From assembly GCF_000174015.1 (NCBI RefSeq), contig NZ_ACFE01000001.1, forward strand, positions 124,001 through 188,000: a stretch of 64,000 nucleotides of DNA, in the 5' to 3' direction. Below, piece by piece: positions 13,135 to 18,726 of the stretch. Under the pieces are notes generated by a model. It was given only the letters and a program-made list of their open reading frames with translations, ran no database searches and had not been told where the DNA came from. Origin of the DNA: Lancefieldella rimae ATCC 49626. Its GTDB lineage: Bacteria > Actinomycetota > Coriobacteriia > Coriobacteriales > Atopobiaceae. Positions within the stretch are counted from its first letter, which is position 1. Each line of letters opens with the position of its first letter. The position numbers and the translations under genes were made by a program.

Positions 13135-13389
13135 ATGGCACACAAGAAAGGTCTCGGCTCATCTCGTAACGGCCGCGATTCCCAGGCGCAACGCCTTGGC
13201 ACCAAAATTTACGGTGGTCAGTCCATTAAGGCTGGTCAGATCATTGTTCGTCAGCGTGGCACCCACATTACCCCAGGTGTCAATGTAGGACGTGGCAAAG
13301 ACGATACCCTCTTTGCACTCGTTGACGGAGTTGTTGAGTTTAAGCAGGGCGTTAAGCACGTTGTCAATGTCGTTGAAGCCAAGGCATAA
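13135..13389 (+). CDS. rpmA: 50S ribosomal protein L27
   Basis: Large-subunit protein whose N-terminus reaches the peptidyl-transferase centre. The 84-aa sequence starts [20 protein letters not shown] and contains the family's GTKIYGGQ and [10 protein letters not shown]. It starts directly with MAHKKG, without the cleavable N-terminal extension of Firmicutes L27. A strong terminator follows 28 bp after the stop. Confidence 0.97.
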
Positions 13390-13417
13390 GCTCACCACAC
13401 GTTATATTGGTATGCAC

Positions 13418-13443
13418 AAGGAGCCCTTCGGGGCTCCTTTTTT
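13418..13443 (+). terminator. Terminator of rplU-rpmA
   Basis: Perfect 9-bp stem AAGGAGCCC / GGGCTCCTT closed by a TTCG tetraloop and followed by a T-run: a textbook Rho-independent terminator. Confidence 0.95.
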
Positions 13444-13574
13444 GTGACGTGCTTTATGATGCCCCATGCACGCCCTACGTTTCAGAATTGTTTCAAGTTT
13501 TATTTTGGCTGGCGTATCAAATCCGTCCCTGTTATCCTTAAAATACGTTCAATAGGTTTTTGGAAGGAGGACAC

Positions 13575-13649
13575 ATGAAACACGGTCTTACAACAACTTC
13601 TCACACACAGTGGTGGTGGCACAATTGGTCTTCCTTCGGTCGATGGTGA
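13575..13649 (+). CDS. Trp-rich leader peptide (attenuator)
   Basis: A 24-codon ORF that ends TQWWWHNWSSFGRW, with Trp codons at positions 13, 14, 15, 18 and 24. GGAAGGAGG at 13562-13570 is one of the strongest ribosome sites in the window. A terminator hairpin begins 25 nt after the stop, and a tryptophan-type ECF transporter follows. This is the layout of a trp leader peptide: with little charged tRNA-Trp the ribosome should stall at the WWW run. Function is inferred from this arrangement; the peptide itself is probably not functional. Confidence 0.88.
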   Translation: MKHGLTTTSHTQWWWHNWSSFGRW

Positions 13650-13706
13650 GTCATTCCTGCTGTATATCGCATACAAGGGCTCCCGGAAAGACCGGGGCTT
13701 TTTTAT
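13635..13706 (+). promoter_or_regulatory. Tryptophan attenuator: terminator and competing antiterminator
   Basis: Terminator: GGGCTCCCGG (13677-13686) pairs with CCGGGGC (13692-13698), followed by TTTTTT. Competing pairing: CTTCGGTC (13634-13641), inside the last codons of the leader peptide, can pair with GACCGGGG (13690-13697), which includes the loop and right arm of the terminator (two G-U pairs). A ribosome stalled at the WWW codons (13611-13619) would leave 13634-13641 free and so block the terminator. A ribosome that reaches the stop would cover it and allow termination. The folds were drawn by hand. Confidence 0.75.
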
Positions 13707-13767
13707 TATGAATTAGTTTTTTACTTTGTATCAGACCTTCTTTAATCATTCGTGAAAGGATATATCC

Positions 13768-14352
13768 ATGTCATCCGAACACAAGGACTTCACTTCTACT
13801 TCCGCCTCTACACCTGCCCAACCCCGCACGGTTGTCCAAACAAAGTCCGAGGGTGCTCTTGATGTGACATCGCTGGTAACCGTAGCAGTACTTATCGCAG
13901 CCGGTTTGATTCTTGATCTTACCGTAGGGAAGGCAATCAGTGCCATTGGTATTGGACCGGAGTTTGTTATCGCGTCATTTTGCCTTGCAATCATAGTGCT
14001 TAAGCCTCGCGCAGTTCAGTCCATTATCATTGGGCTTATCGCCGGCGCGGTCATACAAATTACCACGTCTCTTCCCGGAGCCGACCTTGTTGCCGAGCCC
14101 ATCTCGGCGCTCGTCATGTTTGCATTTGTTTCAGGTTCATTTGCAAAAAGCAAGATCATGCCTTTTGTCGGCTCTTTTGTTACCACCACTATCTCCGGTC
14201 TTATTTTTGCCGCCATTGCAATTCCTGCAAAACATGCCGGCTTTGATCTGTTTTTAGTCATGGTTCCCGTTATCTTGGGTACGGCGCTCTTTAACGCCAT
14301 TGTGGTACAGGCGCTTGCAGCTCCGCTTACGCAGGTTACAAACCACCGGTAG
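13768..14352 (+). CDS. trpP: ECF transporter substrate-binding subunit, TrpP-like
   Basis: Membrane S component that should bind tryptophan and pair with an energising module. The 194-aa protein has a ~35-residue polar N-terminus, then five to six helices. The stretch AVIQITTSLPGADLVAEPISALVMF (about residues 92-116) mirrors the TTAFPAGQIPN..DKPVTAF region I recall from Bacillus TrpP. An AAAGGA ribosome site precedes ATG 13768. Upstream is the Trp-codon attenuator; downstream are the ATPase and T component, making a self-contained transporter. Substrate assignment rests on both family resemblance and the leader. Confidence 0.82.
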   Translation: MSSEHKDFTSTSASTPAQPRTVVQTKSEGALDVTSLVTVAVLIAAGLILDLTVGKAISAIGIGPEFVIASFCLAIIVLKPRAVQSIIIGLIAGAVIQITTSLPGADLVAEPISALVMFAFVSGSFAKSKIMPFVGSFVTTTISGLIFAAIAIPAKHAGFDLFLVMVPVILGTALFNAIVVQALAAPLTQVTNHR

Positions 14353-14530
14353 CTTTTAAAAACCCCGGTCTACTTTGAGAACCTCAGTCGATACCATGTG
14401 TTAGAAATTGAGTTTTTTACAAAAAATCTGCGTGCTGCCAAATTCTCGTTGGTTGGCACGCGATTCTTGTATACACTCAAATACACTCAAAGTGCCGTCG
14501 AAAAAACAACCTTAAACGAACCAATGGATG

Positions 14531-14541
14531 GCGAGAAGAAC
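14531..14541 (+). repeat. GCGAGAAGAAC repeat in the ecfAA leader
   Basis: Exact 11-mer copy of the window-wide repeat directly touching the ATG at 14542, with GGATGG before it. The 14353-14530 spacer holds a short stem (GCGTGC / GCACGC, 14430-14461) and no other recognisable signal. Confidence 0.8.
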
Positions 14542-16488
14542 ATGCAGCCCGTACTTGATTTTCAAAATGTAGTGTTTTGCTATCCAAATGGCAAAACTCC
14601 CGCACTCTCAGATATAGACTTTAAGCTTAACAAAGGCGACTTTCTTGGCATTATCGGGCCTTCCGGAGCAGGCAAGACAACCCTTACTTCATTGATGTCC
14701 GGAGCTATCCCGCATCACTATCAGGGGATGTTCTATGGTGCCGTTCTTGTTGAGGGACGCGATACCTGTGAGATGACCTTAACGGATATCTCACGCTTTG
14801 TGGGCCTTATTCTGCAAGACATTGACGCTCAGATGGTTGCTACCATTGTTGAAGATGAGCTGCTCTACGGACTTGAGAATTTCGGAGTTCCGCATGAGTG
14901 CATTATGGATCGTCTTGACTTTGCGATAGAGGCCGTAGGCATAGAGAGCTTGCGGTATAGAGAAATTGCAACGCTTTCCGGAGGGCAAAAGCAGCGTGTG
15001 GCCATTGCCGCAATCATGGCACTTCAGCCGGAGGTCATGGTGCTTGATGAACCTACGGCGGCACTTGATCCCGTATCATCGCAGGCGGTGTTTGAGACGC
15101 TTGCCCAGCTTAACCGTTCCAAAGGCATTACGATTGTAGTAGTGGAGCAAAAAGTTGCGCTTCTCGCCGAATTCTGCTCTCGTATGTTGGTATTGGCGGA
15201 TGGAAAAATTGCAGATGAAGGAAGTCCCGAGGAGGTATTTTCTCATTCTGCGGAGCTGAGGGAATTGGGTGTTGACAGTCCTCGTACGGCCCGTATTTCA
15301 AACTACCTTTACAAACTTGGTCTTTCAAGTCAAAAGAACGTCTCGCTCAGCGTTCGTGATACCTGTGCTTCTATCGGCCGTATTGTGGGGGAGAGCAGAA
15401 ACGTTACGTACGAAACTCCACTTCATATAGAAAACCACATCCAAAAAGACGCACTTCAACCATCCTATTTACCGGTTATTGATAGTCCCATTATGGCGTC
15501 TGCCACGGGACCTTTTGGAAAAATATCGACAGAAGCTCAAGAGAAGGCTCCTCCGCTTGAGGTGATTGACGTATCGTTTCGCTACGACGTGAGCAACGAT
15601 GGCGTCAACCACATTACGTTTTCGGTTGAGCCTGGTGAGCTTGTGGCTCTTATCGGACAAAACGGCGCCGGTAAAACAACGGTTACCAAGCTGGTTAATG
15701 GCCTTCTTCGTCCGCAAGACGGAGACGTACTCATTATGGGATCTTCAACTAAATCCAAAAAAATCAGCGAAATCGCACGTCATGTGAGTACGCTGTTCCA
15801 AAATCCGGATTATCAAATTTGCAAAGAGACCGTACTTGAAGAAGTGGCTTTTGGTCTTGAGCTCAAAGGTATCGCTTCCAAAGAAGCCACCGAGCGCGCG
15901 CATAAGACCCTTGAGCACTTCAATCTTGATCCGGAGGCCTCTCCGTTTTTGCTTTCACGCGGTCAGCGACAGATTGTTGCTTTGGCCTCCGTGGTGGTTT
16001 GCGAGCCAGACATACTCATTTTGGATGAGCCTACCTGTGGCCTTGACTATAAGGAATGCATGGTTGTTATGCAAGCCGTTGAAGAGCTTCGCGAGAAGGG
16101 CTGTGCGGTTCTTATGGTGTGCCATGATATGGAAGTGGTTTCCGATTTTGCTACTCGCCTGATAGTTATGACACAAGGCTCAATCATTGCCGATGGCCCG
16201 CTCGCCGACGTATTTACCCAAGACGATATTATGAGAGCGGCTGCGGTTATACCTCCGCAGGTAACGCAGGTTGCCCGTGTTCTGTCTAAACACGTTGATC
16301 CTGCTTATACCGGTCTTACCAAGGTATCCGAGATAGCAAAAATGACCGAGCGTATTGTACGTGATGCCAAGAATCGCTCGGCAGCCGCTCGTTTTGTTGA
16401 GGCGGCCACTGCAGAACATGCCCAGAAAAACCGCAGACAAAATCAAGCGACTACGGATACGTTCAAGGAGATACCGAATGACAAATAG
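14542..16488 (+). CDS. ECF transporter ATPase, two fused ABC domains
   Basis: Energising ATPase of the tryptophan ECF transporter, with EcfA1- and EcfA2-type domains in one 648-aa chain. Domain 1: Walker A GPSGAGKTT near residue 40, signature LSGGQKQR, Walker B VMVLDEPTAALDP. A linker of about 80 residues follows. Domain 2: Walker A GQNGAGKTT near 375, a degenerate signature LSRGQRQ, Walker B ILILDEPTCGLDY. ATG 14542 is preferred; the frame is open back to 14398 and an ATG at 14524 is possible. The first domain keeps the canonical signature while the second has Arg for the second Gly. It overlaps ecfT by 11 bp. Confidence 0.9.
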   Translation: MQPVLDFQNVVFCYPNGKTPALSDIDFKLNKGDFLGIIGPSGAGKTTLTSLMSGAIPHHYQGMFYGAVLVEGRDTCEMTLTDISRFVGLILQDIDAQMVATIVEDELLYGLENFGVPHECIMDRLDFAIEAVGIESLRYREIATLSGGQKQRVAIAAIMALQPEVMVLDEPTAALDPVSSQAVFETLAQLNRSKGITIVVVEQKVALLAEFCSRMLVLADGKIADEGSPEEVFSHSAELRELGVDSPRTARISNYLYKLGLSSQKNVSLSVRDTCASIGRIVGESRNVTYETPLHIENHIQKDALQPSYLPVIDSPIMASATGPFGKISTEAQEKAPPLEVIDVSFRYDVSNDGVNHITFSVEPGELVALIGQNGAGKTTVTKLVNGLLRPQDGDVLIMGSSTKSKKISEIARHVSTLFQNPDYQICKETVLEEVAFGLELKGIASKEATERAHKTLEHFNLDPEASPFLLSRGQRQIVALASVVVCEPDILILDEPTCGLDYKECMVVMQAVEELREKGCAVLMVCHDMEVVSDFATRLIVMTQGSIIADGPLADVFTQDDIMRAAAVIPPQVTQVARVLSKHVDPAYTGLTKVSEIAKMTERIVRDAKNRSAAARFVEAATAEHAQKNRRQNQATTDTFKEIPNDK

Positions 16489-17227
16489 CGTGATTGACTA
16501 TACCGAAGGCTCAAGCTTTCTTCATAAGGCAAATCCAATCACCAAGGTATTTCTCGCCATTGAGCTTTTTGCGGCGGGTATCCTTGCACCCAACTTCCCG
16601 GCGATTTGCTTTGTCATTGCACTGACACTTTTCATCAATATCATCTCGAGCAACGCTAAAAAAGCATTTAAGCTTCTGGGGGCATTTAGCGTTATCGGCG
16701 CCTTCATGTTTGTGGTTCAGGCTCTCATTGCACGATCGGGAGAGCCTGTGTGGTATTTCATCACCGATCAAGGTCTTATAACGGCAGGAAACGTAGCTTT
16801 GAGAACCATTGCCCTGGCGCTTCCGTTGCTCTCGATGCTTGCCCTTACTCGTATGGAAGACCTTACCGGTGCATGTGTAGAGGTTTTGCACATTCCGTAC
16901 CGCTATGCGTTTACCGTCACAACCGCACTGCGTTTTGTTCCGATATTTTTACAGGAAATGACGAAAATAAAAGAAGCACAGACGGCTCGCGGCATTGAAT
17001 TTGACTCCAAAAATCCCTTTCGCCGGCTCCAACTGCAGCTTCCCTTCATCGTTCCTTTGATAGTCTCATCGGTGAAAAAAGCAGACGCTACCGCGCTTTC
17101 AGCGGAGCAGCGAGGCTTTTATTTGCGTACAAGAAAGTCCTCACTTAAGCGCTATCCCATGCGGTTCTCTGACATTGCAGTCCTTCTTTTGGGATTTGTG
17201 GTGCTTATCGCGATAGCTCTTTGGTAG
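16478..17227 (+). CDS. ecfT: ECF transporter transmembrane component EcfT
   Basis: Membrane coupling protein that joins the S component to the ATPases. The 249-aa protein starts at ATG 16478 behind AAGGAG. It has several N-terminal helices, then the coupling region with the two Ala-Arg-Gly-type motifs: AQTARGIEFD near 168 and a more divergent AEQRGFYLRT near 209. The last helix (FSDIAVLLLGFVVLIAIALW) ends the protein. The overlap with the ATPase gene indicates translational coupling. No terminator is evident before obg. Confidence 0.9.
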   Translation: MTNSVIDYTEGSSFLHKANPITKVFLAIELFAAGILAPNFPAICFVIALTLFINIISSNAKKAFKLLGAFSVIGAFMFVVQALIARSGEPVWYFITDQGLITAGNVALRTIALALPLLSMLALTRMEDLTGACVEVLHIPYRYAFTVTTALRFVPIFLQEMTKIKEAQTARGIEFDSKNPFRRLQLQLPFIVPLIVSSVKKADATALSAEQRGFYLRTRKSSLKRYPMRFSDIAVLLLGFVVLIAIALW

Positions 17228-17271
17228 CTTTAAATCACCACAAATCGAGCATTTCGTTTACAGGACGTTGA

Positions 17272-18726
<1,455 letters not shown>

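Follow-up and report, generated by a model that had tools for sequence, protein, structure and literature searches.

Organization of the locus

In the window, that is, the whole 64,000-nucleotide stretch of Lancefieldella rimae DNA analysed here, the region 13135-18726 has an ECF operon between the gene for ribosomal protein L27 and an ORF resembling the GTPase gene obg. A short leader ORF, with the L27 gene on its 5' side, precedes the operon, and the features relevant to its regulation are as follows.

13418-13445, forward strand: terminator after the L27 gene, from a terminator scan
13562-13574, forward strand: ribosome-binding site of the leader, GGAAGGAGGACAC, read from the sequence
13575-13649, forward strand: leader peptide ORF, MKHGLTTTSHTQWWWHNWSSFGRW and stop, 24 codons, read from the sequence
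13611-13619, forward strand: Trp codon run W13-W15, the putative stall site, from conservation among relatives
13634-13652, forward strand: 5' strand of the antiterminator (CTTCGGTC, TGG and GAGTC), overlapping the leader stop codon
13676-13704, forward strand: intrinsic terminator (hairpin 13676-13701 plus T tract 13699-13704), from a terminator scan and folding
13678-13697, forward strand: 3' strand of the antiterminator (13678-13682, 13683-13685 and 13690-13697), occupying both terminator arms
13768-14352, forward strand: ECF S component, putative tryptophan binder, 194 residues, in no Pfam or NCBIfam family
14542-16488, forward strand: fused ECF ATPases A1-A2, TIGR04520 and TIGR04521 above cut-off, start chosen from domain position
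16478-17227, forward strand: ECF T component of the CbiQ family, PF02361, start chosen from domain position

The leader probably has a promoter of its own, because the L27 gene ends in its own terminator; the promoter search of the window returned none for the leader and listed two minus-strand sites only. L099 and L100 likewise have an obg-like ORF after the T component gene.

The ECF uptake system proposed downstream of the leader in the first-pass annotation is confirmed by the ATPase domains (TIGR04520 and TIGR04521), the T component (PF02361) and the fold of the S component. An AlphaFold model of the latter is helical, with a mean pLDDT of 82.6 and a poorly predicted stretch over the first 27 residues, and its best solved matches in Foldseek are S components such as RibU, ThiT and the folate S component, at TM-scores of about 0.5-0.67 and with none at E<=0.001. 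Small alanines spaced AxxxA are the signature of the first helix of S components. In this family, A40 is conserved in at least 90% of rows and A44 is invariant in 18 rows, both residues lying in the first helix of the model, and two alanines in S components are also described in the available portion of PMC11109136. The protein thus resembles the RibU, ThiT and FolT transporters in S-component fold, ECF ATPases and T component, but differs from them in having neither a Pfam or NCBIfam family nor a sequence relative among solved structures, as a profile search for such a relative gave none at E<=1. The S component finds no match in Pfam at E<=1 or in NCBIfam at E<=0.001, and its membership in the TrpP family of Firmicutes thus lacks support from these family models. 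A further protein that bears the name TrpP in PMC11995493, as far as that source is available, is different from this S component. Tryptophan is the likely substrate.

Leader peptide and alternative RNA structures

The leader ORF sits behind GGAAGGAGG, a strong ribosome site, and has Trp codons at positions 13, 14, 15, 18 and 24, in agreement with the earlier description of a 24-codon frame with five Trp codons and a very strong ribosome site. By its sequence, the frame has the consecutive cognate codons expected in the leader of a ribosome-mediated attenuator. The stop codon is followed by 118 nt before the next gene, and the terminator lies in this interval, between the leader ORF and the first gene of the ECF operon, as expected of an attenuator. 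The downstream terminator claimed in the first-pass annotation was recovered by both scanning and folding: the scan detected a hairpin with T6 at 13681-13697, which folding lengthened to 13676-13701.

The pairing of 13634-13641 with 13690-13697, also anticipated there, was found at those coordinates as the helix CTTCGGTC:GACCGGGG within the minimum-energy fold of 13631-13705 (-24.2 kcal/mol; 10/200 dinucleotide shuffles as good, z -1.82). Its extent had been underestimated, as the antiterminator continues inwards from this outer helix through the pairs of 13644-13646 with 13683-13685 and of 13648-13652 with 13678-13682. The antiterminator and terminator are mutually exclusive, and computation predicts that ribosome position chooses between them, the window folding into the antiterminator (-24.2 kcal/mol) with a ribosome stalled at the three Trp codons and into the terminator (-15.6) with a ribosome at the stop codon. 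The window sequence alone is insufficient to establish the leader, as TGGTGGTGG by itself is not rare in the window (1 observed vs 0.42 expected) and the fold of the whole leader is unexceptional against shuffles (z -0.79); its significance derives from conservation in relatives, which also rules out a chance ORF.

Conservation of the leader among relatives

Among 23 loci picked by the S-component protein alone, all 23 have a leader with three consecutive Trp codons (WWW). In 22 of them, TGGTGGTGG belongs to a small ORF no more than 1 kb upstream, the leader of L013 lying before a tandem S gene. At E<=0.01, a covariance model of 13 leaders, given the terminator as its sole structure, matched 209 of the order's 395 genomes, a figure that includes weak, mostly unconfirmed matches. 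The strong matches listed at E<=1e-8 number 140 in 137 genomes, and 120 of these 140 are followed in less than 1.2 kb by an S component of the same strand, at a median of 94 nt. Nine further strong matches have an S component by tblastn (L061, L086, L092, L095, L100, L113, L114, L121 and, settling G167, L263), giving 129 of the 140 listed matches with an S component downstream; the remainder comprise eight before an NSS transporter and three at contig edges (G179, G187 and G197). Among the relatives with names are oral, gut-type and vaginal genera.

The S-component profile matches 231/395 genomes of the order, 129 of them with a strong leader match. Strong leader matches among S-gene genomes were found in 63/69 of family f1, to which the window belongs, and in 62/62 of f3, that is, in 125/131 genomes of f1 and f3 vs 4/100 in f4 and later families (f1, f3 and f4 presumably being Atopobiaceae, Coriobacteriaceae and Eggerthellaceae). 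The S genes of f4 and later families are more divergent than those of f1 and f3, and the leader was present in 0/5 divergent f4 S genes examined. Loss of the Trp codons or of the hairpin in close relatives had been named in the first-pass annotation as evidence that would count against its proposal. The leader persists in 5/5 genomes of the window's genus and throughout most of f1 and f3, whereas three of the six f1 exceptions (G008, G017, G038, G039, G067 and G073) lack it on examination: G038 and G039 (L260 and L261) have lost the Trp leader and kept a terminator with a GACC loop, and in G008 (L262) the S gene lacks a Trp leader and lies directly 3' of an RNase P RNA gene. The G008 genome does have a Trp leader at another place, before a TrpB-like gene.

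In 100 aligned leaders, hand-picked from loci selected by a model that itself contains WWW, the triplet run occurs in 99, the stop codon falls 27 nt after it in 98, and a Shine-Dalgarno match of at least 4 bases is found in all 100, the start being picked for the best match. Outside the order, a Gardnerella genome has one locus scored as leaderless (L179), yet L005 of the same genome has a leader; the S component occurs in 6/121 sampled genomes of the Gardnerella family, and in the tree the four Gardnerella-type rows cluster together, the position of the cluster being uncertain. Of 246 genomes sampled across the phylum, 15 matched, all from the window's order.

Several observations concern the S genes themselves. 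Two tandem S-component genes are found in a number of genomes (e.g., G115:C12 and G470:C2); at L013, one leader precedes such a pair, perhaps for two substrates. In Gardnerella piotii (L006:6001-6648), the S-component match spans one stop codon.

Covariation and pairing energy

The terminator is the structure best supported by covariation. It is paired in 96.5% of cells, both sides have changed in 11/12 pairs, and its covariation of 0.376 vs 0.225 in shuffled alignments was equalled in 0/500 trials. Across all columns, mutual information places terminator pairs first and second, with other column pairs mixed in that probably reflect shared ancestry. The antiterminator core is paired in 92.1%, and its GGTC:GACC core is nearly invariant, with changes on both sides at 2/8 pairs. 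For the two antiterminator helices tested, both sides have changed in 7 pairs vs 5.0 when shuffled (37/500 as high), so that covariation by column counts supports them more weakly. The first alignment-folding consensus structures also paired the Trp codons with the antiterminator block, but these helices were discarded, as the bases concerned would be covered during translation by the ribosome.

Pairing-energy tests compared native, swapped and shuffled partners in 44 clusters. The antiterminator block pairs with the left arm plus loop at -16.82 natively, -15.93 when swapped (13/5000 as good) and -10.55 with shuffled partners, and for the block with the loop plus right arm 9/5000 swaps were as good as native. 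The inner part of the block with the left arm alone was no better than swapped (439/5000), and two control pairings across the 44 clusters gave nothing. A protector helix, in which the bases after WWW pair with those after the stop codon, is also favoured across the 44 clusters (-8.23 native vs -7.07 swapped, 0/5000 as good); in the window it amounts to only -1.9 kcal/mol.

In calculations of the folding states, with the ribosome stalled and the right arm still to be made, upstream bases capture 65-67% of the left arm, against 1% with the ribosome at the stop codon, the latter partly because the block is assumed to be covered; left-arm pairing anywhere falls from 0.70-0.71 when stalled to 0.48 at the stop. 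At full-length equilibrium, the average probability of the terminator core over relatives is 0.87-0.89 stalled vs 0.98 at the stop. The terminator is thus favoured at equilibrium in most relatives, whose switch must therefore operate while transcription is under way. The window differs from most relatives in that the antiterminator is its minimum-energy fold in the stalled state.

Similar leaders on other genes and tryptophan physiology

Similar leaders occur before two other types of genes. A small ORF with two adjacent Trp codons (WW) and a following hairpin precedes 18/30 TrpB-like genes and is lacking in 12/30, these being the best 30 of the matches found in 72/111 f1 genomes. For the NSS transporter, a similar leader precedes 8/10 orthologues, all of one genus, and one of the two leaderless orthologues (L242) is a contig fragment with no upstream sequence; NSS paralogues of the same genus have a similar leader in 0/20 cases.

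The antiterminator sequence differs by class, being GGTC in ECF and NSS leaders, CGGAC in most TrpB-like leaders and GTTTACTC in Gardnerella, and antiterminators match terminators class by class, with the exception that ECF blocks pair equally well with NSS terminators. When classes were swapped, without a control for base composition, Gardnerella blocks paired at -14.4 with their own terminators vs -8.1 to -9.6 with others, and TrpB-like blocks at -18.6 vs -10.9 to -16.0; there was no native advantage within classes (ECF -19.3 native, -19.4 swapped).

A search of 395 genomes for IGPS genes identified one in 98 genomes and none in that of the window, whose host therefore probably needs tryptophan from outside. 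The leader is kept in some IGPS-bearing genomes (e.g., G006, G042 and G049). In the IGPS regions of 14 genomes, a small WW ORF with a T run was found in 0/14 stretches by a crude scan, some of the stretches ending at contig edges. G038 and G039, in which the terminator is kept and the leader lost, have IGPS, as if attenuation had decayed where tryptophan can be made.

Proposed mechanism and alternative explanations

Judged from its sequence and its relatives, the element very probably works by transcription attenuation of the classical, ribosome-mediated kind, with charged tRNA-Trp as the signal and uptake genes as the target. When tryptophan is scarce, the ribosome would halt at W13-W15 and leave the block CTTCGGTCGATGGTGAGTC free to pair with the left arm, loop and right arm of the terminator; the resulting antiterminator would allow polymerase to read into the ECF uptake operon. 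When tryptophan is plentiful, the ribosome would reach the stop codon inside the block and cover it, so that the terminator could form. In many relatives, the protector pairing might hold the block back in the absence of a ribosome. Translation of the leader and stalling on it, the sensing of tRNA-Trp and the direction of regulation are likely on this evidence, and the ribosome-mediated Trp attenuation suggested in the first-pass annotation finds support in the conservation of the elements, the covariation of the terminator and the predicted switch. The position of W24 argues against the attenuator reading, as a stall there would favour termination.

A quite improbable alternative is that the leader, though translated and conserved, exerts its effect mainly through translation, Rho or the stability of the ECF mRNA, in which case the hairpin would be a partial terminator that is constitutive. 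That the hairpin can exist alone is illustrated by G038 and G039, which keep it without the leader. However, the antiterminator pairing is conserved and class-matched, the stop codon holds a nearly fixed position relative to the antiterminator, and the ribosome site of the S gene lies downstream of the helices described. Control by another Trp-linked RNA device has next to no likelihood. T-boxes and TRAP sites are the usual devices for Gram-positive trpP genes, and under such control the small ORF would be incidental; at Rfam gathering scores, however, the window has only a tRNA, located elsewhere, the leader belongs to no Rfam family, and no T-box was found in 20 further loci, mostly chosen for lacking the leader, so that a T-box was ruled out. 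A TRAP-controlled leader has about 11 (G/U)AG repeats spaced by 2-3 nt, whereas the longest such chain at TRAP spacing in the window leader is 1, and TRAP was likewise rejected.

A somewhat more plausible alternative, still rather unlikely, accepts the attenuator and questions the cargo, such that tryptophan starvation would be the cue and the ECF transporter would import some other compound, be it indole, a precursor of tryptophan or a different aromatic molecule. In its favour, the TrpB-like enzyme, for which indole is a putative substrate, has a similar leader, and the tandem S genes near one leader in a number of genomes suggest more than one substrate. On the other side, a similar leader also precedes a transporter of the NSS family, which includes known amino-acid carriers, and a host with no detectable IGPS probably needs tryptophan itself. 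With moderate confidence, it can further be proposed that in the Coriobacteriales families f1 and f3, many of whose members lack IGPS, leader attenuation serves a small regulon of uptake and salvage instead of synthesis, comprising a new family of tryptophan ECF S components, a TrpB-like indole-salvage enzyme and, in one genus belonging to another family, an NSS transporter, each with a matched antiterminator, with a divergent version in Gardnerella.

Relation to known systems

In E. coli trpL, a leader peptide with Trp codons is coupled to mutually exclusive hairpins between which ribosome position decides, and the window leader shares these three properties. It differs in that its antiterminator strand lies in the 3' end of the leader ORF and the stop codon and pairs with both terminator arms, and in that its target is uptake. 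The mechanism is textbook, and the use of attenuation on uptake and salvage genes in this bacterial group, without synthesis, looks like the unusual part.

Closer parallels are the attenuators of the trp operons of Corynebacterium and Streptomyces, and of trpS2, described in the available part of PMC1262725. These, too, are found in actinobacteria and combine a leader peptide carrying Trp codons in twos or threes with a U-tract terminator and a competing antiterminator, but, as far as that account extends, they control biosynthesis or trpS, whereas the leader of the window precedes an uptake operon. The window leader has GGTC/GACC as its core and lacks the conserved triple gGCC-rGCy-GGCC given in the same portion; by reading, GGCC occurs nowhere in 13602-13712, and it is present in the terminator stem of some relatives. 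The genome list in the accessible text of PMC1262725 does not include Coriobacteriia, and no transporter is named there. Predicted histidine-leader control of permease and transporter genes in Gram-positives, as outlined in partial sources, offers a precedent with another amino acid in another phylum, and the available part of PMC2965389 mentions many predicted attenuators before ABC transporters in general. In the literature as far as it was accessible, no report was found in which an ECF transporter, an NSS transporter or this TrpB-like gene has a Trp leader; Korolev et al. 2015, cited in PMC4833913, may overlap.

These results predict tryptophan as the substrate of an ECF S-component family that has no Pfam or NCBIfam model, and mark the NSS transporter and the TrpB-like enzyme as likely Trp-responsive. 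They also lend themselves to comparative work, because the sequences of antiterminator and terminator vary between gene classes yet remain matched.

Two individual loci bring these gene types together. At L086 (G311), the NSS transporter adjoins the ECF operon, each with its own Trp leader, and at L097 (G352) a Trp leader precedes a TrpB-like gene, after which comes a reading frame of 498 residues whose start resembles that of the S component.
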